64,000 nucleotides of DNA from Clostridia bacterium. Lineage in GTDB: Bacteria > Bacillota > Clostridia > UBA1212. Both the position numbers and the translations under genes were made by a program. The stretch spans positions 62,001 through 126,000 of the forward strand of contig JAFSVU010000008.1 in assembly GCA_017444825.1 (NCBI GenBank), in the 5' to 3' direction. The notes under the pieces were generated by a model. The model was not told the origin of the DNA. It did not search any database and saw only the letters and a program-made list of their open reading frames with translations. Shown piece after piece: positions 28,445 through 39,722 of the stretch. Positions within the stretch are counted from its first letter, which is position 1; each line of letters starts with the position of its first letter.

Positions 28445-28930
28445 TCACTCCATGAGAACATTTACATACCTGCTCTTTACGGTTATCGGGATCTCAATAT
28501 CAAAGCTCAACAATTCTCCGATCCTTAGCGGAACCTTCACTGTATAGTCTGCCCTTAGTCGCAAAACGTTTTCAGTTTCAAAAGAGATCTCAGTATCCTC
28601 TACCGACCAGATCACAGAGCCGTTCTTATCCATCTTGACAATATTTCCGCTCTCACCTGCCGCGCCTGTCTCGATAATAAAACGTTCCTCAAACAGAGTC
28701 CCTTCAATAGACATAGCCCTGTTATGTCCCTGTTTTATCGAGTCATAGATTATCGTTGCATTTTCTATCACGCAACTGTCAAGCGCCCTTTTTGAACTTT
28801 CGTATATGACCCTAAGCGCACCCAAAGCTTCAGAAAAGGTGAGTACCAAAGCAAATATTGCTGTAGCAAAGAACAGACATACTGCAGTCGATACGTAGCC
28901 TGAACCTTTTTCATTTTTCAAGATCGTCAT
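28445..28930 (-). CDS. Minor pseudopilin-like protein (tad cluster)
   Basis: A 161-residue protein with N-terminal motif KGSGYVSTAV and one hydrophobic helix (about residues 13-38), then a beta-rich extracellular part. It resembles the short TadE/TadF-like minor pilins of Gram-positive tad loci. The G-Y after the basic stretch is shared with the two other pilin-like proteins of this cluster (28948 and 34873). It is the last gene of the main tad operon. Confidence 0.68.
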   Translation of the reverse strand: MTILKNEKGSGYVSTAVCLFFATAIFALVLTFSEALGALRVIYESSKRALDSCVIENATIIYDSIKQGHNRAMSIEGTLFEERFIIETGAAGESGNIVKMDKNGSVIWSVEDTEISFETENVLRLRADYTVKVPLRIGELLSFDIEIPITVKSRYVNVLME

Positions 28931-28947: not shown

Positions 28948-29355
28948 CTACTTCCAGTACTGTTCCGAAAGCCCGCTTTTTACAGAAGTGATTACGAGGG
29001 GACTTTCAAACACGCCAAAGAGCTTATCCTCCTTTTCAAGACACAATTCAATGCGTATCATTTCCCCCAGTTGTACAGTATTTTGTTCTTCATCAAAGTA
29101 TTCCGTTCCTTCAAAACTGCAGGACGGATATATGCCAAGCTGCTCGCACAGACTCTCATATCTTTCTTCAACAGGGCCTGATGTCTTACCGAACACCGCA
29201 GCCGCCTCGATCATCTCCTGAGCAAAAAAGTCAAGCTTTTGCCTGTCTATAAAGTATTCAAATACGCCAAGGCAGAAGACAATAAAAAAAGCAGCCACCA
29301 TCACAAATACCGCAACTTCTAAATACCCCTCTCCCCTGCTGTTTTTTAAAATCAC
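28948..29355 (-). CDS. Minor pseudopilin-like protein (DUF4320-like)
   Basis: A 135-residue protein with N-terminal SRGEGYLEVAV and a hydrophobic helix to about residue 32, then a small domain with two cysteines (CEQLGIYPSC). It looks like the DUF4320 proteins found beside tad genes; the family call is tentative. The start is 14 bases after the TadC gene and the next gene follows after 17. Confidence 0.66.
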   Translation of the reverse strand: MILKNSRGEGYLEVAVFVMVAAFFIVFCLGVFEYFIDRQKLDFFAQEMIEAAAVFGKTSGPVEERYESLCEQLGIYPSCSFEGTEYFDEEQNTVQLGEMIRIELCLEKEDKLFGVFESPLVITSVKSGLSEQYWK

Positions 29356-29369
29356 TTCCTGTCACCCCC

Positions 29370-30239
29370 TTAAATAAAAGCCGAAAGGCTGGAGATCAGA
29401 ACCGTACCCAAAACTACCAGGTATATAAGCATAAAGCAAAACATAAGAGCCATTGAAAGTCTCCTGACTTTTGACGGAACCTTCAGAGCTTTTTGTCTGA
29501 GAAGCTGTTTCCGGTAGTCAGAGAACTTGACCTCAAGCGACTTCCAATATTCACCCGTCTCATCTCCCCTGATAATACTGATCAGCCCTCTTGTCACGTC
29601 TGACAGCATTGAAGAACACACCCTTGACTCAAGTCTTGTAAGAGCTGTCTCATAGTTCCCGGATCTCATATCTGCCTCCGTAACTGTTAGTTCCTTTGCA
29701 AAGCTCCCTCCTGAGTATTCCGAGTAAGAACGTATAATGTAAAGAACGTCTCTGCTGTGTTTTAGGATCTTGGATATGTGATTCACAAAGCCCGGAAGAT
29801 CAGCCTCTATTTCCAATCTTCTTTTGTTAACAATATTGTACGGCTTCTGAAAAGACGCTTCATATACAACGTACGCCGTCGCCAATATGAGAGGTACAGC
29901 AAGGGGAAATAAAAAAGCCATTGGAATCGCCAAAACTGCTACAAGATACGCTTTTATCAAACAGTTTGATACGAACACTTCCGCCTCAATCCCGGCCCCG
30001 GCAGAACTCAGCACTTCATTAAGTGTCTCTTTTCTGTAGGATGCAAGTCTTATTCTTTTTGAAAGCTTTTCAGCCAGGAACTCAAGCCTTACGTCAAGTT
30101 TGCTCTTGTTCCACGCAGCGATCCTTCTGCTTAATCTGTTCTGAACCCTTATTATTCTTCCTCCCGGAAGGTCGAATATGCTTGTAAAAACCATAAACAG
30201 TCCCACAGCAAGGAAAAACCCTGCTACAAAGTAAAACAT
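29370..30239 (-). CDS. tadC: TadC-like inner-membrane platform protein (T2SS F domain)
   Basis: A 289-residue membrane protein. Hydrophobic helices lie at the N terminus, near residues 95-130 and at the C terminus (about 262-289). The cytoplasmic middle region (LPGFVNHISKILKHSRDVLYI, LTRLESRVCSSMLSDVTRGLI) fits the type II secretion F domain. With TadB it forms the platform over which the TadA ATPase works. Seven bases separate it from the preceding tadB gene. Confidence 0.85.
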   Translation of the reverse strand: MFYFVAGFFLAVGLFMVFTSIFDLPGGRIIRVQNRLSRRIAAWNKSKLDVRLEFLAEKLSKRIRLASYRKETLNEVLSSAGAGIEAEVFVSNCLIKAYLVAVLAIPMAFLFPLAVPLILATAYVVYEASFQKPYNIVNKRRLEIEADLPGFVNHISKILKHSRDVLYIIRSYSEYSGGSFAKELTVTEADMRSGNYETALTRLESRVCSSMLSDVTRGLISIIRGDETGEYWKSLEVKFSDYRKQLLRQKALKVPSKVRRLSMALMFCFMLIYLVVLGTVLISSLSAFI

Positions 30240-30246
30240 GCGTTCT

Positions 30247-31182
30247 TCACCTCCCGCCGTACTCGATAGGTCTTGTATATTTCATCATGTAAAGCCCTGT
30301 GATCAATATCACCGAAAACACAACAGCGATTGCAACCTTTCCGGGGATCGTACTGACAAGCGCTTCGTACCAGCTCCTGTTTATGATCCGGAGGAACGGA
30401 ATGTTTGCAAGAGTCATTGCCGCCATTATGAAATATTCTTTTCTGGGCTCCTGAACTATAGTTTTCAGCTCATTGTTTATAAGTCTTATATCCGTGTATT
30501 TTGAGACGGTCGAAAGCAGAGTGTCTTTGAGGCTTCTGTCCTCAAGGCATGCTCTGATGCCGTCGCACCACTCGCGGAAGACCGCATTATCAACCTTTCC
30601 TCTAAGGTTCATCAGTGCGGCATCAATGTCGGGCGTGATCAAGGTGACGTCTTTAATAAATCCTTCAAACACGCTTCTGATCGGCTGTTTCATAACTGGT
30701 ATGTTTTCTCTAACAGAGCCCACAAAGTCTTCCGTTCTGATATACGAATTGGTTATTATCGAAAGCGTGGTCTCAAGCTGGTCTTTAACTCTCCTGTCGT
30801 ATTCCGCCGAATATCGCCCGATGATGACAAAAGGAATCGCAGCGGATACGATCGCCATGACAGGAGATAAAAACAGATTCCCGAAAAAAGCCGGTACGAG
30901 CAGCCCCGCTGCAAACAGAACTGCAGACAGCCTGACCGATACCCCAAACAATTGACCCTTCCCGATCTTATCCAATGCGGTTTTAAGCGCCAGGAGCTCG
31001 CTTATGATATAATTCGGTTTCTTACCTCTCGCGGCTTTAATATCACCGGCAAGAGTCTTCTTTTCAAGGCGTCTGTCTATCTCTTTTTCAAGTGATTCTC
31101 CGATATTAAAGCCAAAAACTTTCAAAAGACCTATCGATACAAAAGCAAAGACCGATAAATAGATCACAGTCCGGATTTCCAT
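30247..31182 (-). CDS. tadB: TadB-like inner-membrane platform protein (T2SS F domain)
   Basis: A 311-residue membrane protein with an N-terminal helix, a helix pair near residues 85-125 and two C-terminal helices. The cytoplasmic domain (KDQLETTLSIITNSYIRTEDFVG, ACLEDRSLKDTL) fits the F domain of tad and type II secretion systems. Located directly between the ATPase gene and tadC, as usual for the locus. Confidence 0.85.
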   Translation of the reverse strand: MEIRTVIYLSVFAFVSIGLLKVFGFNIGESLEKEIDRRLEKKTLAGDIKAARGKKPNYIISELLALKTALDKIGKGQLFGVSVRLSAVLFAAGLLVPAFFGNLFLSPVMAIVSAAIPFVIIGRYSAEYDRRVKDQLETTLSIITNSYIRTEDFVGSVRENIPVMKQPIRSVFEGFIKDVTLITPDIDAALMNLRGKVDNAVFREWCDGIRACLEDRSLKDTLLSTVSKYTDIRLINNELKTIVQEPRKEYFIMAAMTLANIPFLRIINRSWYEALVSTIPGKVAIAVVFSVILITGLYMMKYTRPIEYGGR

Positions 31183-31195
31183 TCAGTTCGCCTCC

Positions 31196-32494
31196 TTAAT
31201 TTAAAAATCTGTTTAAAACCGACCTTGGGATGCCAAATTGTACAAGCCTTTTCTGCAGTGAGCCCGAGAGAATGTTTTTCTTTTGGAAAGACCCCTCCGT
31301 AATAAGTTTACCGTCTTTCACATAGGAATTTTCAATGTCAAACGAGTAGATCGTCGCATATGATCGCTCTCCGGTCGAGGGATCTACGCCACATTCCGTG
31401 ATGTCCATTATCTTTCTTTCGTTGTTTTCAAGCTTGTGTGTATAAACAACGACCGGAAAGGCCTGAGCCGCCTGGGAAAGCGACGTTCTGAAATCTATTG
31501 CAAACTTCTTTTGGCAAAGCAGTGCTATTCTTGTATGACAAAGCTCGCCCGCGCCGGAATGGACGGTTGAAATGACCGTGTGTCCGGTAAGACTTGCCTC
31601 TACTGCTGAATAACATTCCGAATCCCGCATTTCGCCGACACAGATCACATCGGGGTCAAACCGAAGAGCCGCAACAAGAAGATCCTCCTGGGTAATATCG
31701 TAAGCCTCATTGTCGGACGGCCTGGAAAGGGAATGCACCACGTTATTTACGATCCTTCCATCATTCCTTCTTATCAGTGACAGTTCACGTGAGCCTGATT
31801 CGATCGTAAATATCCTTTTGCTGTCCGGCAGGCTTTCAAGCACCGCATTAAGCAACGTTGTCTTTCCGCTGGATGTTGCCCCTGAAATCACGAAAGGAAC
31901 GCCGTAACGTGCGCATACGCATAAAAAATCCAGCATTTCCTCAGTGGCAAAGCCGCTTTCCAAAAGCTGCCTGACCTTTATGCTCGCCGGCCTTAAAATT
32001 CTGATAGAAACAGCTATTCCCCTTTCATCATCAACTACCGGAGACTTGAGAGCCGTTATCCTGGTGTTCCCGGGAAGGTGCCCCTGGGCTACAGGGGTTG
32101 CCGAATCGATGACCATTCCGCTGTGGCTGAGCAGCCTCTTTACAATATCGATCGCATGCTGTTTCCCCAGGAAAGCTTTTTCCAGTTTTACTACACTGCC
32201 GTCACGCTTTGTTACGGCAATGTCATCCCAGCCGTTTATATTTATCTCTTCAAGATCATCCGAAGAAAGAAGCGGCGTCAATATACTGTACCCTGACATT
32301 TCATTAACCATGGCATCCGCCAATTCCTGTAAGGAGTACCCGTCAGCTGCAATATCGGCGTCCCTCAGGTATTTTTCGACATACGATCTCAAATACTTTC
32401 CTGCAGACCGGTCAACGAGAGCTTGTGAATAGTATTTCGATATATATTCCTGTGTAAGCCTGAGTATTTCCGCATATTCATAGAAAGTGCTCAT
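31196..32494 (-). CDS. tadA: TadA/CpaF secretion ATPase
   Basis: A 432-residue hexameric motor ATPase of the tad (type IVc) pilus. Walker A GATSSGKTT is near residue 205, Walker B with PDVICVGEMRDSE, then HTVISTVHSG (His box). The N-terminal part carries the usual CpaF region (EEININGWDDIAVTKRDG). Powers pilin assembly through TadB/TadC. Its start overlaps the tadZ stop by four bases (ATGA). Confidence 0.95.
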   Translation of the reverse strand: MSTFYEYAEILRLTQEYISKYYSQALVDRSAGKYLRSYVEKYLRDADIAADGYSLQELADAMVNEMSGYSILTPLLSSDDLEEININGWDDIAVTKRDGSVVKLEKAFLGKQHAIDIVKRLLSHSGMVIDSATPVAQGHLPGNTRITALKSPVVDDERGIAVSIRILRPASIKVRQLLESGFATEEMLDFLCVCARYGVPFVISGATSSGKTTLLNAVLESLPDSKRIFTIESGSRELSLIRRNDGRIVNNVVHSLSRPSDNEAYDITQEDLLVAALRFDPDVICVGEMRDSECYSAVEASLTGHTVISTVHSGAGELCHTRIALLCQKKFAIDFRTSLSQAAQAFPVVVYTHKLENNERKIMDITECGVDPSTGERSYATIYSFDIENSYVKDGKLITEGSFQKKNILSGSLQKRLVQFGIPRSVLNRFLN

Positions 32495-33324
32495 AACGCC
32501 TCACTGTCCTGACTCATATCGTAATTAAAATCGTATGCGATCTCATTTTTGCGCCTGAATACACCGCTGTAAACAGGCCCTTCGTTAAAATTTATCATTT
32601 CGACAGCCTCCCCGAGGGATCTGGCATATTCTTTGCATCTGATCTTCGTAAAGACCTTTCCTTCAGAATACTTTTTATTTGCAAACTCATCGTAGGGAAC
32701 CTCAAGGACCACGTCGCCTCTCGTTCTTTTGAAATTCTCGCTCGGAAGAGCGGGCCCCGGAGTTTTATGGTTGACCACAGTTATGAAATTAACTTTGAAA
32801 ACGTTTAAACGGTCAAAGTATGACATTACCGAACTGTTCCAGGAAATTGATTTGAGGTCAGGATTGACTACGCTGAAAAGAATATCCGACATTTCAAATA
32901 AAGCGTCTGAAAACGCACTTTTTATGTCAGGATCGCAATCGACTATCACATAATCAACGATCTGCCGAAGCTCATTAAGAAACTGCTTTATTTTGTCAGT
33001 CTCAAACTCCGGGTAAGAATACACATTCTCACCATCAATAAACCCCATCACGCCGAAATTGGTCATTCCCGAAACAGGAATCATGTTCTTCAATATGTCA
33101 GTCTTTGTTATGACCGGTTTGGATAGAGCGGCTCCGAGAGAACGCATTTCACTCTTCTTCATTTCCGGAAACATATACGAAAGCACCGGTACTACCTGAC
33201 TTGCGAATACCACAGCAACACGTTTTTCCTCTTTATAAAATCTGTAGAGCGATTGAGCAAGATTTGCGGCAAACGAGGTTTTACCGGATCCGCTACTGCC
33301 CCACACAGCAATTAGTTTTTTCAT
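32491..33324 (-). CDS. tadZ: TadZ/CpaE-like ParA-family ATPase
   Basis: A 277-residue P-loop protein of the MinD/ParA type, which in tad systems places the machine in the cell. The P-loop is GSSGSGKTS (residues 9-17), and Walker B is YVIVDCDPD. The signature lysine of deviant Walker A motifs (KGGxGKT) is not seen; S11 sits there, so dimer-type ATP use may differ. The stretch FFAS-type receiver domain of Gram-negative TadZ is absent. Overlaps tadA by four bases. Confidence 0.85.
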   Translation of the reverse strand: MKKLIAVWGSSGSGKTSFAANLAQSLYRFYKEEKRVAVVFASQVVPVLSYMFPEMKKSEMRSLGAALSKPVITKTDILKNMIPVSGMTNFGVMGFIDGENVYSYPEFETDKIKQFLNELRQIVDYVIVDCDPDIKSAFSDALFEMSDILFSVVNPDLKSISWNSSVMSYFDRLNVFKVNFITVVNHKTPGPALPSENFKRTRGDVVLEVPYDEFANKKYSEGKVFTKIRCKEYARSLGEAVEMINFNEGPVYSGVFRRKNEIAYDFNYDMSQDSEAL

Positions 33325-33360: not shown

Positions 33361-34110
33361 TCAGTATTTCACAGTATCCGTCTCTTCTCTGTTAAGAAAA
33401 TACCTGTCCTGTTCTTCAATAAAACTCTCCGCATACTCTTCTGACCCTCTGTACACAAGACAAATATGTATTTTCGCACTGTTCTCAAAGTCGACCAAAA
33501 GCGATGCCTGTATATCATTCACAAGCAGCGTAACTGTCGACGGAATTTTGTCGTATGAAGATGAATCCGATGCCAGATTCTCTTTGTCAACACCGTTTTT
33601 TGTTGTGGATGTGATCACTTTCACATAAGAAAGCTCTTCCGGTGTAAAGGATGCTTTGTCCTTGTAAATTATCAGTCTCACTATATCACCGCTTTCAAGC
33701 TTTCCCGAAAGGCCTGCGGCAAGGGACTCTATAGTCACGCTTACAGCATACTTATCACCGTTCAAACGCCTGAACAGACTGTCCGCACTCATGGCTTCAG
33801 TCGATAATTTTGATTCAAATATATAATCTTCTTTTTTTATATCGGTCGCAGCGTATTTTCCTACCACACGACTGATATCCGTAACACAGTTCTGCGGCAG
33901 TCCGGTCTTACCAACTTCAACTAAAGTGACGTCATCTGCGGTTATTATTCTGCCTTTGCCAATGTCATTGACCGCCCTGACGACACGGAGTTTGCTTCCG
34001 GAACTGTTCACGGTCAGCGGCAGTACCACAAAAGCGATAACCGCAGCAACGCCAATGCATAGAATTCCCAGCACAGTCCTGTTTTTTAAAAAACCAGTTA
34101 TTTTTTTCAT
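33361..34110 (-). CDS. cpaB: CpaB/RcpC-like SAF-domain protein
   Basis: A 249-residue protein with one N-terminal membrane helix (about residues 9-32), then a SAF domain (VVRAVNDIGKGRIITADDV) and a CpaB-type C-terminal region (VTIESLAAGLSGKLESGDIV). In Gram-negative bacteria it supports the secretin; in a cell with one membrane it is likely to act in the wall zone, which is inference. ATG 34110 has GAGG five to six bases upstream. Confidence 0.9.
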   Translation of the reverse strand: MKKITGFLKNRTVLGILCIGVAAVIAFVVLPLTVNSSGSKLRVVRAVNDIGKGRIITADDVTLVEVGKTGLPQNCVTDISRVVGKYAATDIKKEDYIFESKLSTEAMSADSLFRRLNGDKYAVSVTIESLAAGLSGKLESGDIVRLIIYKDKASFTPEELSYVKVITSTTKNGVDKENLASDSSSYDKIPSTVTLLVNDIQASLLVDFENSAKIHICLVYRGSEEYAESFIEEQDRYFLNREETDTVKY

Positions 34111-34123
34111 ATATACCTCTTCG

Positions 34124-34798
34124 TTAAATAACGAAAGCAAGCGTAAGCCCTATTGATATGAAAGGGAGCAGTGCGAACGGTTCTTTTGTTTTGTATACCC
34201 CTCTTTTTGAAAGAATAAGCATAGTTACAACACCTGTAATCAAACCGATAAAAAGCCCTGCCAAACCGTTCCAAAGGCCCAAAGAGATAAAGGCGGCAGA
34301 TGTGATCTTGATATCCGCGCCGCCGATACCTCCGCGCCTGATAATTAACACTATTACGCAAAACAGCACTAACACGATCAGTCCCGCAATGGCGCCCTTC
34401 GCTATACGAACAAGATCCGATCCTGCCAAACCGAGTATCGACAATTCGATCGACAGAAAATTCTCAGCCGTGTGTGACATTATGTCCGAAAGGGATGCAT
34501 ATGCAAGAATGCCCGTAAAAAGAATACCTTTCAAAGCTCTTACAGAAGGTCCGAACCTGATACCGATTACCAAAGACATAAGCAAAAAAGCAATGTATAC
34601 TGCAGCAAGCCAGCGTTTTTGCGTATGGATCGAATCCTTGATCTTTTTCTTTCTCAGAGAATGCAAAGCATAAAAAACTGACGCACACAGCACCGCGCTT
34701 ACAGCGACAAAAATAATGATCGTTATCGCATCTTGATTTTTCGACACTTCGGTATTTAAGTATTTATTCGATATAAGCAATGTAAAAACTCCGTTCAT
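34124..34798 (-). CDS. cpaA: Prepilin peptidase (A24 family, TadV/CpaA)
   Basis: A 224-residue membrane aspartyl protease that cuts prepilin leaders. About six hydrophobic helices; the catalytic aspartates are in YASLSDIMS and GGIGGADIK (GxGD-like with Ala). It should mature the Flp-like pilin and the minor pilins of both clusters. No clear ribosome site precedes ATG 34798; a TTG six codons later has GGAG eight bases upstream, so the start may be there. Confidence 0.88.
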   Translation of the reverse strand: MNGVFTLLISNKYLNTEVSKNQDAITIIIFVAVSAVLCASVFYALHSLRKKKIKDSIHTQKRWLAAVYIAFLLMSLVIGIRFGPSVRALKGILFTGILAYASLSDIMSHTAENFLSIELSILGLAGSDLVRIAKGAIAGLIVLVLFCVIVLIIRRGGIGGADIKITSAAFISLGLWNGLAGLFIGLITGVVTMLILSKRGVYKTKEPFALLPFISIGLTLAFVI

Positions 34799-34872: not shown

Positions 34873-35097
34873 TCAGCCCGGGTCATAGGCAAAAAGACCT
34901 GTGATCTTTGATGTAAGTGTGGGATCCACAACACCTGTGTAGATGTAGTAAAGGGAAGTAAGAAGGACCGTTCCGATGACGACCGCGATAATTATTTTCA
35001 CCACGGTGTCTATGTAGCCTTCCGCTTTCTTGCTTTCAATATTGTTTTTGATCTTTAGAAAGAGTCCGTTTGCTGTTTTTTTGATTTTGTTGATCAT
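34873..35097 (-). CDS. Flp-like major pilin (DUF6133 type)
   Basis: A 74-residue small protein: basic N-terminal part, then AEGYIDTVVKIIIAVVIG and one hydrophobic helix, then a short tail. This form matches the DUF6133/Flp-like pilins of clostridial tad loci. Processing after the Gly of EGY is inferred; the usual Glu at +5 is missing. ATG 35097 has GGAGG five bases upstream, the best ribosome site in the operon. Flanked by gaps with hairpins on both sides, as expected for a highly expressed subunit. Confidence 0.8.
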   Translation of the reverse strand: MINKIKKTANGLFLKIKNNIESKKAEGYIDTVVKIIIAVVIGTVLLTSLYYIYTGVVDPTLTSKITGLFAYDPG

Positions 35098-35187: not shown

Positions 35188-38100
35188 TCAGTATCTTGTG
35201 TACCAGCCGTCGTAGGCATCTCCCGAAACCGTGATCTCAACAACGACCCTTGCATTTATCATTCCTGCCGGAGTCCAGATGTCGCTGTACACAAGAACAA
35301 CTTTGTATTCACCGTCAGGAAACCATACGGGTATGAAATGGACCCGTTTTTCACTGTCCGAATAATGATTTTCTCTTAGAGAAAAACTTGGTGATGTAGT
35401 AAGCGAGGAGTTCTTTAATGTTGTTTCAAGAGACGAGAACCGGTTCAATGCTTCACTGTACATAAATTCCGGATAATATGCCCTGCATGACTGCACTCCG
35501 GTATAAATGTAATTGGACGCAATTGACGGAAGATCGGAAAACAGAAGAACATTAAGGTCTGCAACAATGTAAATCCCGTGGCCCGATCTTACTGTTCCGT
35601 TACCGCTGCTCGGCACGTCGGTGTCGGGAATCAGCCTTGCGGAACTCCACCTTGATACTGATAGAGCAAAGTTTCTTTTTACAAGTGCACCGTTCTGCTC
35701 TTCCCACATTGTCCACCTTGCATACTCAAATGAATCGTCCGGGGGAGATATCAATTCCGTATCAACCGGTTTAACACGTTCGTAATGGGTATCAGGCGTC
35801 TCCGAACGGTTTTCTTCCGTCACTGCCGCAGCAATAAGAGCTCCGTTGTTCATATAGTCAGTTTCAGGAATTCCTCTGTCGGGATTAACAAGAGCACTGC
35901 AGAAGATCTCATGGCCGGATAGTCCGTAGGGCACGTACCACTTAAAGCAGACGAGATTTTCTCCCTTTGATGGGGCCACGTTGTTAGTTTTCTGAGCTTC
36001 TAATACCGGGATCTGCTCACCGTTTTCATAGTAGTAGACAAAAAAGTGTACAGTTATCCCGTGTGATTTCATCAGATCATAATCATTCGGATTGATCAGT
36101 CTGAATGAAGATACAACGTAAGTTCCCTCTTTATAATCCGCATTCGGCTGTATTTTCTCCAATGCAACGTCAAAGCCGCTGTCTGAAGTATAGTTTTCAA
36201 AATACAGTTTGTTTGCATTTCCGTTGCCGTATTCATTGGTTAAACCGTACTTAAACAGTTCAATATATCCTTTTTCAACCGGATCATTGAAACCGGCAGA
36301 GCTCTGTTCGCCAAACCATGTCAAAGTTTTGTAGCAGTTTTCAGCCGCATCAATGCTTTTATAGTATTCCGCTACCGTCCATTCTCCGTCCGGAAGACCG
36401 TTGACTGTAATTGTCTTATATCCGCTGCCGTTCGTAACATTGACGTTAAAACCCGAGAGTCCCGGTATGGGTACCTCGTATGCATCGCCGTCACCGTCAT
36501 ACAAAACAGTTTTGTCAAGCACGATTGTTCCGTTAACGAGGGAATACCTTGAATTCAGGATGTTTCCTTCCAGGTCCACCGCGACAGTGTAATGACCTAT
36601 AGCGGACAAGTCAGCCTTCCTCAGCACAAAAGCTATATCCGAATAATCGGAAACCGTAAAACCTTCCGGATCCCTTATGCTTTTTGTTATTGATAGAGTG
36701 CCGGTCATACTGCTTTCGCAAACAAGCTCGTAAGAACCTCCTTCGATCACACTGAAGGAGCATGTTTTGGCATAAGTTGATATTCCAAAAGCGTCAATGA
36801 ATTTTGTGACCGTATAAACAGGATCGTCTCCTGTTTCCGTAACCCTGAATGACAGACGTCCGTCCCCGTGGACAGGTAAAGTCACTGAACATTTTCCGAA
36901 TACAGATCCGTTATGATCTAGTAGTTTTTCGTAGACCAAAGAGACTTGTATCCCCGAAACATTGATACTATAAACCGCACTTTCACCGGGGACAGCCGCG
37001 CTGCCTGTTGTAAGAGCGTTCAGGACGGAAAAATCCAGGGGGACATGGTAATTGTTTCCGCCCGTACTCCAGGAAGCCTCATAAATACTGTATGAAAAAT
37101 CCCGTTCCATAGCATTTCCCGTAAATCTTCTTTCAAGTACAAGAACCGTACTCTCGTCTGAACCTTCCTCAGAGGTAACTGGATCCACTTTTCCGCCCGC
37201 CTGGTACCTGAACCCGACACCTCCGTTTTCCACCACTCTGTCGTAATACAAAAGGTTCGACCCTACACTGTAGTAGTCTGATGTTTCAAAAGGCCTGTAC
37301 CCGAACCAGGGATACTCGGGAAGTACAGATGAGCAAAGATTTACAAAGAAGGGAGAAATAAAGGCCCAACTCGACAGTTCATTTCTGACTGAATACGGCG
37401 CAACATTCCGGTAGTTTTTCGCCCCGCTCACCATGGTATATCCGTCATTGCCGTTGGTTAGAGTTAATGCAATGCAGCCCGAAACCATTGCTGCAGCAGC
37501 ATCTGTCGCAGTCATTGCGTAATAGTTGAAGCCGTTTGACAGGTATTTTGTGAAAACTATCACGGGCTCAAACATGAGAACCCATGCAACCTGAGACGTT
37601 TCAGGCTCCCATCTTCCCGGAATCGCATAACTCTGTTTTCTCCCCGGATCCACATCGGTAACATCTCTTATGACACGGCCGTTTAAGCTGAATTTTCCTT
37701 CCTCCGTCATCTTACGCAAAAGCTGGGAATATTGAGTATAGCCTGCGGCTTTAGCCGCAAAGTCAAGAAACGCATTCCAGTTTTTCTTAGACGAGCAGAA
37801 AAAGAAGCTTATTGCTTCGTCATATCTTTCCGGAAAATTGTAGGCTGTATTTCCCGTTACGTTTTTTACGTACGGAAGAATGATCCTGTTTCCGTCTTTA
37901 GGCTCAAATCCGTTATCAGAGACCCCTTCTATCATGTTAAACTTTCTGACATTGAAGAGACGTCCGGATATCGAGTCTGATGACATCATTCCGAAATGAA
38001 GGTTTCCTCCGGGAAAGTTCATAGACCTGAATTCATTTGCATAGTCTTCTTTAGACGAGTCCGCAAACCAGAATGATTTTGAATAAGAAACCTTCTTCTC

Positions 38101-38457
38101 TTCATAAATTGAATGAATGTCTCCCGCTTCATTTGTGCCCTCATATAACCAGAAGGTCTCGCCAAATTTATAAAAATCATCGCTCAGTGAAAAACCGTTG
38201 AGAGGGTTTAAAGGAGAAGAAACCGTTACATCCGATTCATTAAAAGTCGCGCTATCATCTTTTGCCGCATAGATCGTGACCTTCCACATGGTTGACGACT
38301 GCCTGTCGGACCAGTATGCATTTCCCGGATCCGCAGACCCGGGCACGTGAACCGTTCCCGAGGATGTATTGTTTCCAACATCCGCCGCACTGACCGAAAA
38401 CATCCCTGCGAAGAAGATTGCGACAGTAAGAAAAATCAGCAGGCTTTTTTTCAACAC
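35188..38457 (-). CDS. Very large secreted protein of the tad operon
   Basis: A 1089-residue exported protein. The signal peptide (LKKSLLIFLTVAIFFAGMF, cut near VSAAD) is followed by a large, aromatic-rich region of unknown fold (to about residue 600). Then comes an SpaA/prealbumin-like stretch (about 640-740, ending VNGLPDGEWTVAEYY) and a CARDB-like adhesive domain (about 780-900, FRLINPNDYDL). No LPxTG motif, C-terminal helix or S-layer repeat is seen. The start is GTG at 38457, seven bases after GGAGG (TTG 38454 is an alternative). Its place right before the pilin gene suggests a pilus-linked adhesin or substrate. Confidence 0.78.
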   Translation of the reverse strand: MLKKSLLIFLTVAIFFAGMFSVSAADVGNNTSSGTVHVPGSADPGNAYWSDRQSSTMWKVTIYAAKDDSATFNESDVTVSSPLNPLNGFSLSDDFYKFGETFWLYEGTNEAGDIHSIYEEKKVSYSKSFWFADSSKEDYANEFRSMNFPGGNLHFGMMSSDSISGRLFNVRKFNMIEGVSDNGFEPKDGNRIILPYVKNVTGNTAYNFPERYDEAISFFFCSSKKNWNAFLDFAAKAAGYTQYSQLLRKMTEEGKFSLNGRVIRDVTDVDPGRKQSYAIPGRWEPETSQVAWVLMFEPVIVFTKYLSNGFNYYAMTATDAAAAMVSGCIALTLTNGNDGYTMVSGAKNYRNVAPYSVRNELSSWAFISPFFVNLCSSVLPEYPWFGYRPFETSDYYSVGSNLLYYDRVVENGGVGFRYQAGGKVDPVTSEEGSDESTVLVLERRFTGNAMERDFSYSIYEASWSTGGNNYHVPLDFSVLNALTTGSAAVPGESAVYSINVSGIQVSLVYEKLLDHNGSVFGKCSVTLPVHGDGRLSFRVTETGDDPVYTVTKFIDAFGISTYAKTCSFSVIEGGSYELVCESSMTGTLSITKSIRDPEGFTVSDYSDIAFVLRKADLSAIGHYTVAVDLEGNILNSRYSLVNGTIVLDKTVLYDGDGDAYEVPIPGLSGFNVNVTNGSGYKTITVNGLPDGEWTVAEYYKSIDAAENCYKTLTWFGEQSSAGFNDPVEKGYIELFKYGLTNEYGNGNANKLYFENYTSDSGFDVALEKIQPNADYKEGTYVVSSFRLINPNDYDLMKSHGITVHFFVYYYENGEQIPVLEAQKTNNVAPSKGENLVCFKWYVPYGLSGHEIFCSALVNPDRGIPETDYMNNGALIAAAVTEENRSETPDTHYERVKPVDTELISPPDDSFEYARWTMWEEQNGALVKRNFALSVSRWSSARLIPDTDVPSSGNGTVRSGHGIYIVADLNVLLFSDLPSIASNYIYTGVQSCRAYYPEFMYSEALNRFSSLETTLKNSSLTTSPSFSLRENHYSDSEKRVHFIPVWFPDGEYKVVLVYSDIWTPAGMINARVVVEITVSGDAYDGWYTRY

Positions 38458-38480: not shown

Positions 38481-39722
38481 CTAATACATTACGGTATCCA
38501 CCGAACACGAATTGATCTTGAACCTGTCGCAGCAAAATACAACTTTTCCGTCAACTGCGATCTCAAGGTCATAAAATCCCAGGTCTCCACCGCCGTTATA
38601 AAAGTAAATATCCACCGATTCCCGCGGTACACTGTTTAGAAGAACGGTCCCGCCGCCTATGCTGATGACATACTTTCCGTCAAGCAGCGGATAGGCAAGA
38701 AAGAAATAGTCCGATCCTGCTTCAGGATGCTCCGCCGGGCGTCTCACCCTTATGCCAAGGTGGATTTCCTCTCTCATATAAAAAAAATCCCTCAAAAGTG
38801 ATTGAGAAAAATCTTTGATATGGTCCGATATCACATGGCCTGCATCGACATATACTGCGGATAAACAGTCTCTGTCTCTCTGCTCTTTGTCGAGACCCCA
38901 TATGGCAGCTTTCTTTTCATCGCATTTTTCGTAAACAGCAGCCAATATCCCGTCACCGTCGACATCTTCATAGTCAGCTTCTGTCCTCGATATTTTCCCG
39001 ACCGAAAAACCCGGTAGGACGAAGAAAGGCAGACCTTCAAGGATCAGATTTGTCCCAGGTATCTCCTGCGGATCAGAAATATGGCTGTAGGCGTTTGAGA
39101 CCCTTTGGCTGATCAGATATTTTGCGACCTCATCTGATATGATCTTTTCAGCAGGTCTGTAATCCACTCTAAGTCCCTCAACCTGATTTTCAACAGCCGT
39201 CAAAGTAACCGTGTTGTTTTCTCCGGCATTGATGTCCCTTATACCGCCTTCATCAGGCCAGACTCCCTCCGGTATAACGTATTCTTCTCTGATAACTTTT
39301 CCGTCCGTTTCAGACTCGCGCCATGAAGGTTTATCCGCATTGACAACAGGCTTGTAAGTTTCTTTAAATTCGGGATATGGTGACGTCTCTGCAGGAGGGA
39401 CAGTCGCAGTCTCCGATTCCGGCGGAAACGTATTGTCTGTCTCAAATACCGGTTGCATCGAACCAAGGTCGGGAATACCGCCCTCTTCGTTAATCATTAC
39501 CAAAGGCTCAGGAGTTTCCCCGGGAACAACCTTTTCCGTTTCCGCAGGATGCCCTTGGCCAAAACCGATTTCCCGTACGGAAGGCGATTGTATCGGAGCG
39601 GAAATAACCGCAGGTCCATTGTTTTTTCTTCTGCAGGAAGATAGCGTTAAGATCAGGGCAATTGCCGATAAGCAGGTCAAAAGCACGCAGATCAGGCGTA
39701 ATATCACATGTCTGTAATTCAT
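38481..39722 (-). CDS. Lipoprotein of the tad operon
   Basis: A 413-residue lipoprotein with lipobox LSSC (C30) and a long Pro/Glu/Thr-rich linker to about residue 140. The rest has mixed alpha/beta character (YEDVDGDGILAAVYEK resembles a calcium-type loop, GKYVISIGGGTVLL). I do not recognise the family. Located between the DUF3846 gene (18 bases away) and the large secreted protein (23 bases), so it may act as a surface tether or assembly factor. Confidence 0.75.
   Translation of the reverse strand: MNYRHVILRLICVLLTCLSAIALILTLSSCRRKNNGPAVISAPIQSPSVREIGFGQGHPAETEKVVPGETPEPLVMINEEGGIPDLGSMQPVFETDNTFPPESETATVPPAETSPYPEFKETYKPVVNADKPSWRESETDGKVIREEYVIPEGVWPDEGGIRDINAGENNTVTLTAVENQVEGLRVDYRPAEKIISDEVAKYLISQRVSNAYSHISDPQEIPGTNLILEGLPFFVLPGFSVGKISRTEADYEDVDGDGILAAVYEKCDEKKAAIWGLDKEQRDRDCLSAVYVDAGHVISDHIKDFSQSLLRDFFYMREEIHLGIRVRRPAEHPEAGSDYFFLAYPLLDGKYVISIGGGTVLLNSVPRESVDIYFYNGGGDLGFYDLEIAVDGKVVFCCDRFKINSCSVDTVMY

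Follow-up and report, generated by a model that had tools for sequence, protein, structure and literature searches.

A tad-linked C-terminal domain in a secreted surface protein of a Clostridia bacterium

A 1089-residue secreted protein encoded within a clostridial tad operon was found to carry a strictly C-terminal domain, termed CT, whose genes lie almost exclusively beside tad genes. Many clostridia bear Tad pili of the monoderm kind, and the analysis defines a dedicated and so far unannotated family of accessory proteins that accompanies this type of tad locus in most cases. We consider it probable that the protein is a Sec-exported, non-pilin accessory component of the monoderm Tad pilus, docking through its C-terminal part, carrying an exchangeable N-terminal arm and being retained by a partner. 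The window referred to below is the whole stretch of 64,000 nucleotides that was analysed.

The gene (35188..38457, minus strand) was delimited from its open reading frame, a ribosome-binding site and a Sec-type signal peptide. Translation starts at a GTG at 38457 or a TTG at 38454, preceded by a Shine-Dalgarno-like GGGAGG, and the gene extends down to 35188. The N-terminus with the predicted cleavage reads MLKKSLLIFLTVAIFFAGMFSVSA^ADVG, and the signal peptide covers residues 1-24 (VSA^AD; 38386..38457, minus strand) as judged from sequence and hydropathy. This N-terminal segment is the only strongly hydrophobic stretch of the protein (19-residue mean 2.35; maximum 1.50 past residue 45). An earlier note on this DNA had described a secreted reading frame in the tad operon just before the pilin gene, with no LPxTG, membrane tail or S-layer motif. 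The gene proved to be real and to lie on the minus strand, and sequence, hydropathy and domain searches likewise revealed no LPxTG, no hydrophobic C-terminus or membrane tail, no S-layer motif and no known wall-binding domain. A prepilin motif is also absent, a Sec-type cleavable signal peptide being present instead. The gene is single copy in its own genome (2.45 Mb assembly). Used as a query, the protein gave no match in Pfam, NCBIfam, PHROGs or PDB sequences; matches to an interleukin-18 profile were attributed to chance. A clear match to an enzyme family, one of the outcomes the note had set against its proposal, did not occur: none was found by sequence, and the model of the C-terminal part matched Ig-like beta-sandwiches only.

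The operon runs on the minus strand in the order lipoprotein, 1089-residue protein, pilin, TadV, CpaB, TadZ, TadA, TadB, TadC, DUF4320 and TadE-like protein. The first gene (38481..39722, minus) encodes a 413-residue lipoprotein with the lipobox LSSC, a Pro/Thr/Glu-rich linker and a C-terminal domain. Downstream of the 1089-residue gene, and all on the minus strand, lie a 74-residue Flp-like pilin of the DUF6133 family (34873..35097; PF19629, 2.4e-17), the TadV prepilin peptidase (34124..34798; PF01478), CpaB/RcpC (33361..34110; PF08666 and PF16976), a TadZ-like ATPase (32491..33324; CbiA/AAA_31) and the TadA/CpaF ATPase (31196..32494; PF00437, 5e-33). TadB (30247..31182) and TadC (29370..30239) were recognized by homology to the equivalent genes of other tad loci, and they are followed by two minor-pilin-like proteins, one of the DUF4320 family (28948..29355; PF14208, 4.7e-22) and one TadE-like of 161 residues (28445..28930), assigned by homology to the equivalent position in tad locus L018. 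No sortase gene was seen in this operon. The three pilin-like proteins of the window (35097-34873, 29355-28948 and 28930-28445) share the motif G-Y-[ILV]-[DES] at the presumed prepilin cleavage site and lack the usual glutamate at +5.

The domains of the protein were delimited with the help of relatives and structure prediction. The earlier note had recognized a SpaA-like and a CARDB-like part behind 600 residues of unknown nature; those residues indeed matched no family, but they divide into an N-terminal domain of about 410 residues (25-435; 37153..38385, minus), defined by orthologues in the related genomes G003, G005 and G008, and putative SpaA-like modules of the prealbumin fold (436-745; 36223..37152, minus). 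The SpaA-like assignment was supported through colinear orthologues, which match PF17802 above cut-off (6.2e-7 and 8.5e-8), the window copy itself giving no match. The N-terminal domain profile aligns distantly with the N-terminal domain of shorter tad-linked proteins (hhalign probability 91, E 1.1e-6), and an AlphaFold model of residues 24-745 was uninformative for this domain (pLDDT 45.5). The C-terminal model (mean pLDDT 83.6) contains two beta-sandwich domains. The first, at about residues 760-881 (35815..36180, minus), superimposes on the CARDB domain 3idu (Z 10.7, rmsd 2.1 Å over 110 residues), which, together with PF07705 matches in relatives, upholds the CARDB-like assignment. The second conserved domain, previously unnoticed, is CT (about 190 residues, 899-1089; 35191..35763, minus), defined from an alignment (A1) with an invariant W, an SG.G core, P.W.PDG and TPxG motifs and a GN.YDDW region. 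CT is predicted to form a beta-sandwich, for which a fold search matched only generic Ig-like folds. Whole-length Foldseek matches of the C-terminal model to C5a peptidase, arrestin and transglutaminase (TM about 0.25) reflect Ig-like sandwiches only and were set aside.

A first search among 146 relatives matched 16 genomes, including the window's own, mostly over the C-terminal part. The window copy is part of the CT profile A1 by construction; pairwise matches to the window protein, which are independent of the profile, ranged from 2e-43 to 3e-6. A contig scan with the window protein as query found no relatives, and a short-form relative was therefore used as query instead. The short forms (about 575 residues) occur in Ruminiclostridium, Lacrimispora, Oscillibacter, Hungatella, Fusibacter, Paenibacillus and others, and the window CT aligns with theirs at an hhalign E of 1.8e-16. 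Among 27 named short-form loci, tad genes adjoin 23, and in one of the exceptions (Caproiciproducens) tadA is apparently about 12 kb off, judging by contig coordinates. Over 391 genomes of the class, the CT profile matched 39 genomes and the tad-type TadA profile 40. The distance to tadA was determined for the 42 CT hits in this set whose E values were near 1e-9 or lower: 33 have tadA within 20 kb and on the same strand and one further hit has it at 24 kb, while the remaining eight lie on contigs without tadA, four of these genomes carrying tadA on another contig. Counted by genome, 33 have CT and TadA, 4 CT only, 7 TadA only and 347 neither (Fisher p 1e-36, uncorrected for phylogeny). Five genomes have two tad loci, with one CT gene per locus. 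Homologues are thus found mainly at tad loci, the earlier note having named the opposite distribution as evidence against its proposal. CT and the Tad proteins also diverge together: CT distances correlate with those of TadA (r 0.92) and TadC (r 0.94), compared to 0.965 between TadA and TadC. No description of the CT family was found in the literature searched, in which neither DUF4320 nor DUF6550, the upstream neighbour described below, was found mentioned.

CT is strictly C-terminal, only 0-6 residues remaining after it in nearly all members. The N-terminal parts vary from the SpaA-like modules of the window protein to three CARDB repeats, a GBS_Bsp-like part, an Athe_2463 domain or the short-form domain. 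The conservation of CT behind such varied N-termini indicates that the tad-linked CT stays constant while the remainder of the protein is exchangeable. The Athe_2463 domain was rejected as a marker of the family, its matches lying mostly elsewhere. In every family member checked, no LPxTG, membrane or other visible anchor was found.

In the reading that we prefer, Sec would export the 1089-residue protein, and its CARDB-like and CT domains would dock to a fixed Tad component, most likely the exit site or a tip made of minor pilins (TadE/DUF4320). An exchangeable arm facing outward, for display or adhesion, would then be built from the N-terminal domain and the SpaA/CARDB-type modules, and an upstream envelope-anchored product, here the 413-residue lipoprotein, would together with the pilus keep the protein at the cell surface. 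This mode of retention is proposed because the protein has no anchor of its own. Docking of CT to the pilus, a surface target and tethering by a partner are candidate roles suggested by sequence comparison, and a position at the pilus tip, which the earlier note had also suggested, is likewise a candidate. This reading is supported by the linkage and co-divergence of CT with tad, the strict conservation of the C-terminus, the swapping of modules and the presence of an anchored partner of changing type. Against it, linkage and co-divergence would also be expected of a wall protein of the same operon that has no part in the pilus, the CT fold resembles generic Ig-like sandwiches only, and tadA is missing from the neighbourhood of a few CT genes. 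A candidate for docking, together with its matching anchor gene, makes tip identity and wall retention directly testable.

The earlier note had suggested that the protein might depend on the adjacent lipoprotein for retention. Comparison of loci gave support to retention by a neighbour, since the gene directly upstream of the CT gene encodes an envelope-anchored product in most loci, the type of anchor varying. In the short forms the upstream gene encodes DUF6550, in which a long linker rich in Pro and Thr joins a membrane helix to a conserved tail; of 20 strong DUF6550 hits across the class, 19 have a CT gene within 5 kb. Elsewhere the partner is a membrane stalk (L018, L028, L113, L122), an SLH protein (L029, L125), a protein with a Cu_amine_oxidN1 domain (L124, L126) or, on Clostridioides plasmids, a CWB2 cell-wall-binding protein. 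In two of these plasmids, the adjacent genes for the stalk and the CWB2 protein (L127:10208-11805, L129:7247-8910) share a C-terminal tail of about 20-38 residues (27 of 38 residues identical, E 9e-16; 16 of 20, E 3e-9). The tails match more closely within a plasmid than between plasmids, as expected if stalk and CWB2 protein both bind one local partner. The window lipoprotein departs from this pattern in lacking the DUF6550/CWB2 tail, which counts against the preferred reading. A separate anchor is not universal, since in one clade (L021, L026, L027, L108-L111) a TadE-like pilin lies directly upstream, with no stalk or wall binder there. The C-terminal parts of the L028 stalk and the L029 SLH partner were compared for a shared domain, and no significant similarity was found. 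Membrane-stalk partners can end in a conserved cysteine cluster, as seen at L018:2868-3635 and in the gene upstream of the CT gene in L122. At L022:8039-9307, a dockerin type I domain (PF00404, 6e-9) is encoded by the gene upstream of the CT gene, a hint that attachment may be of the cohesin type.

The frequent pairing of CT proteins, which most tad loci of this type encode, with wall-, lipid- or membrane-anchored neighbours could also be explained if the protein were a structural part of the envelope rather than an adhesin, forming with the anchored stalk a collar across the wall by which the Tad pilus would be guided or stabilised. Such a collar would replace the lost secretin and outer parts, and the secretin is indeed lost in monoderm Tad systems (PMC6668835). 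We regard this explanation as possible and rather unlikely: a fixed collar would not be expected to exchange its N-terminal modules as freely as these proteins do, nor to have modules that resemble those used for surface display (SpaA, GBS_Bsp-like, CARDB repeats), and the stalk is missing in one clade.

Comparison with tad-less relatives bears on a further alternative, in which the protein is an adhesin associated with the cell wall, encoded in the tad operon yet acting independently of any contact with the pilus. In G003 and G005, two sister genomes within the genus, the syntenic place lacks the tad operon and just a weaker hit to another member of the T2SSE family was found; a few genes away, both encode a protein with the N-terminal domain and SpaA modules and without CT, adjoining a lipoprotein gene. 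In a third tad-less relative (G008), a lipoprotein gene is followed by a disrupted gene for the N-terminal domain, again without CT, and the C-terminal part of the window lipoprotein matches the lipoprotein that adjoins this gene (G008/L032; phmmer E 2.9e-6). The persistence of such proteins beside a lipoprotein gene in the absence of tad, and modules of the SpaA and MucBP-like types typical of wall adhesins, are in keeping with this alternative. In this comparison, which covers a small sample of incomplete assemblies, CT is nevertheless present with tad and absent without it; CT is found almost only with tad, and the members checked have neither LPxTG nor a membrane anchor, which makes a wall adhesin independent of the pilus improbable. 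At two loci of tad-less sister genomes (L020:5317-10018, L107:7773-12400), a protein with the N-terminal domain and SpaA modules also carries MucBP-like repeats, and the adjoining lipoprotein has in addition a C-terminal membrane helix behind a degenerate, sorting-like ETGD/ATGV motif. Finally, a released substrate of a Tad machine acting as a secretion system would fit the absence of an anchor and could use the conserved C-terminal domain as a recognition signal, but this is very improbable for a protein that has its own Sec signal peptide in monoderms, which need no second export step, and whose anchored partner genes are conserved alongside.

The preferred reading, that of a docked and retained pilus accessory protein, has partial parallels in known systems. 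In type IVa pili, PilY1 combines a type I signal peptide, a variable N-terminus and a conserved C-terminus (PMC7541494), and the window protein likewise has an N-terminal signal peptide, no pilin helix, a variable N-terminus and a conserved C-terminus. The two have no sequence relation, however, and the C-terminal domain of the window protein is a small predicted beta-sandwich rather than the PilY1 beta-propeller; moreover, CT proteins go with Tad (type IVc) loci of monoderms. As judged from its motifs and domains, the window protein is not PilY1 (no PilY1 domain), a minor pilin (no prepilin signal) or a sortase substrate. Tad systems have adaptable minor-pilin tips with exchangeable distal domains (PMC12075869), and CT proteins resemble these TadE/F/G (KilLMN-type) tips in having exchangeable distal parts, whereas the window protein lacks a prepilin signal and a pilin helix, and its locus encodes small TadE-like pilins and no TadG-sized pilin. 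With SpaA/Cna-type sortase-anchored proteins it may share SpaA-like prealbumin-fold modules, as its colinear orthologues suggest, but not the LPxTG or membrane tail. Secreted proteins with the Athe_2463 domain (NCBIfam NF047340) touch the family in one CT member (L029), which bears this domain as its N-terminal module, unlike the window protein. The clostridial tad-like loci of Imam et al. (PMC3244431) are of the same kind as the CT-tad loci, and the CT family is probably among their unnamed genes, although neither the family nor its domain or partner is defined in the main text of that paper.

The surroundings of CT-tad loci point to mobile elements. A T4SS coupling protein (PF02534) is encoded within 35 kb of 18 of the 34 CT-tad loci, compared to about one expected, and on Clostridioides plasmids the tad-CT cluster adjoins a VirD4-like gene and pLS20-type conjugation genes. 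Because of this frequent proximity to coupling-protein genes, clostridial tad loci of this type (L127, L131 and others) appear to travel as cargo on integrative conjugative elements and plasmids. In the window genome (G000), PF02534 gave no hit, and no convincing direct-repeat ends were found for the tad island of the window. A DUF3846 gene beside the locus was dropped as a mark of a mobile element; G003 has a similar gene there without tad, and the gene seems native to the chromosome. With no PF02534 in its genome and a native-looking DUF3846 neighbour, a role in conjugative contact is a possibility at the level of the family and not for the window locus. For the family, a bolder and doubtful proposal would be that clostridial Tad pili, often carried on conjugative elements or plasmids, use a two-part docking system of a CT display protein and an upstream anchor (membrane stalk, lipoprotein, SLH or CWB2) that suits the wall of the host, the anchors in part of the family sharing a C-terminal tail that binds the same partner; together the two parts would serve monoderm conjugation as an adhesin for contact or for mating pairs. 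The strong tie to conjugation genes suggests a role of cell-cell contact in DNA transfer, parallel to that of the type IV pilus adhesins present on some enterobacterial plasmids (PMC9045228).
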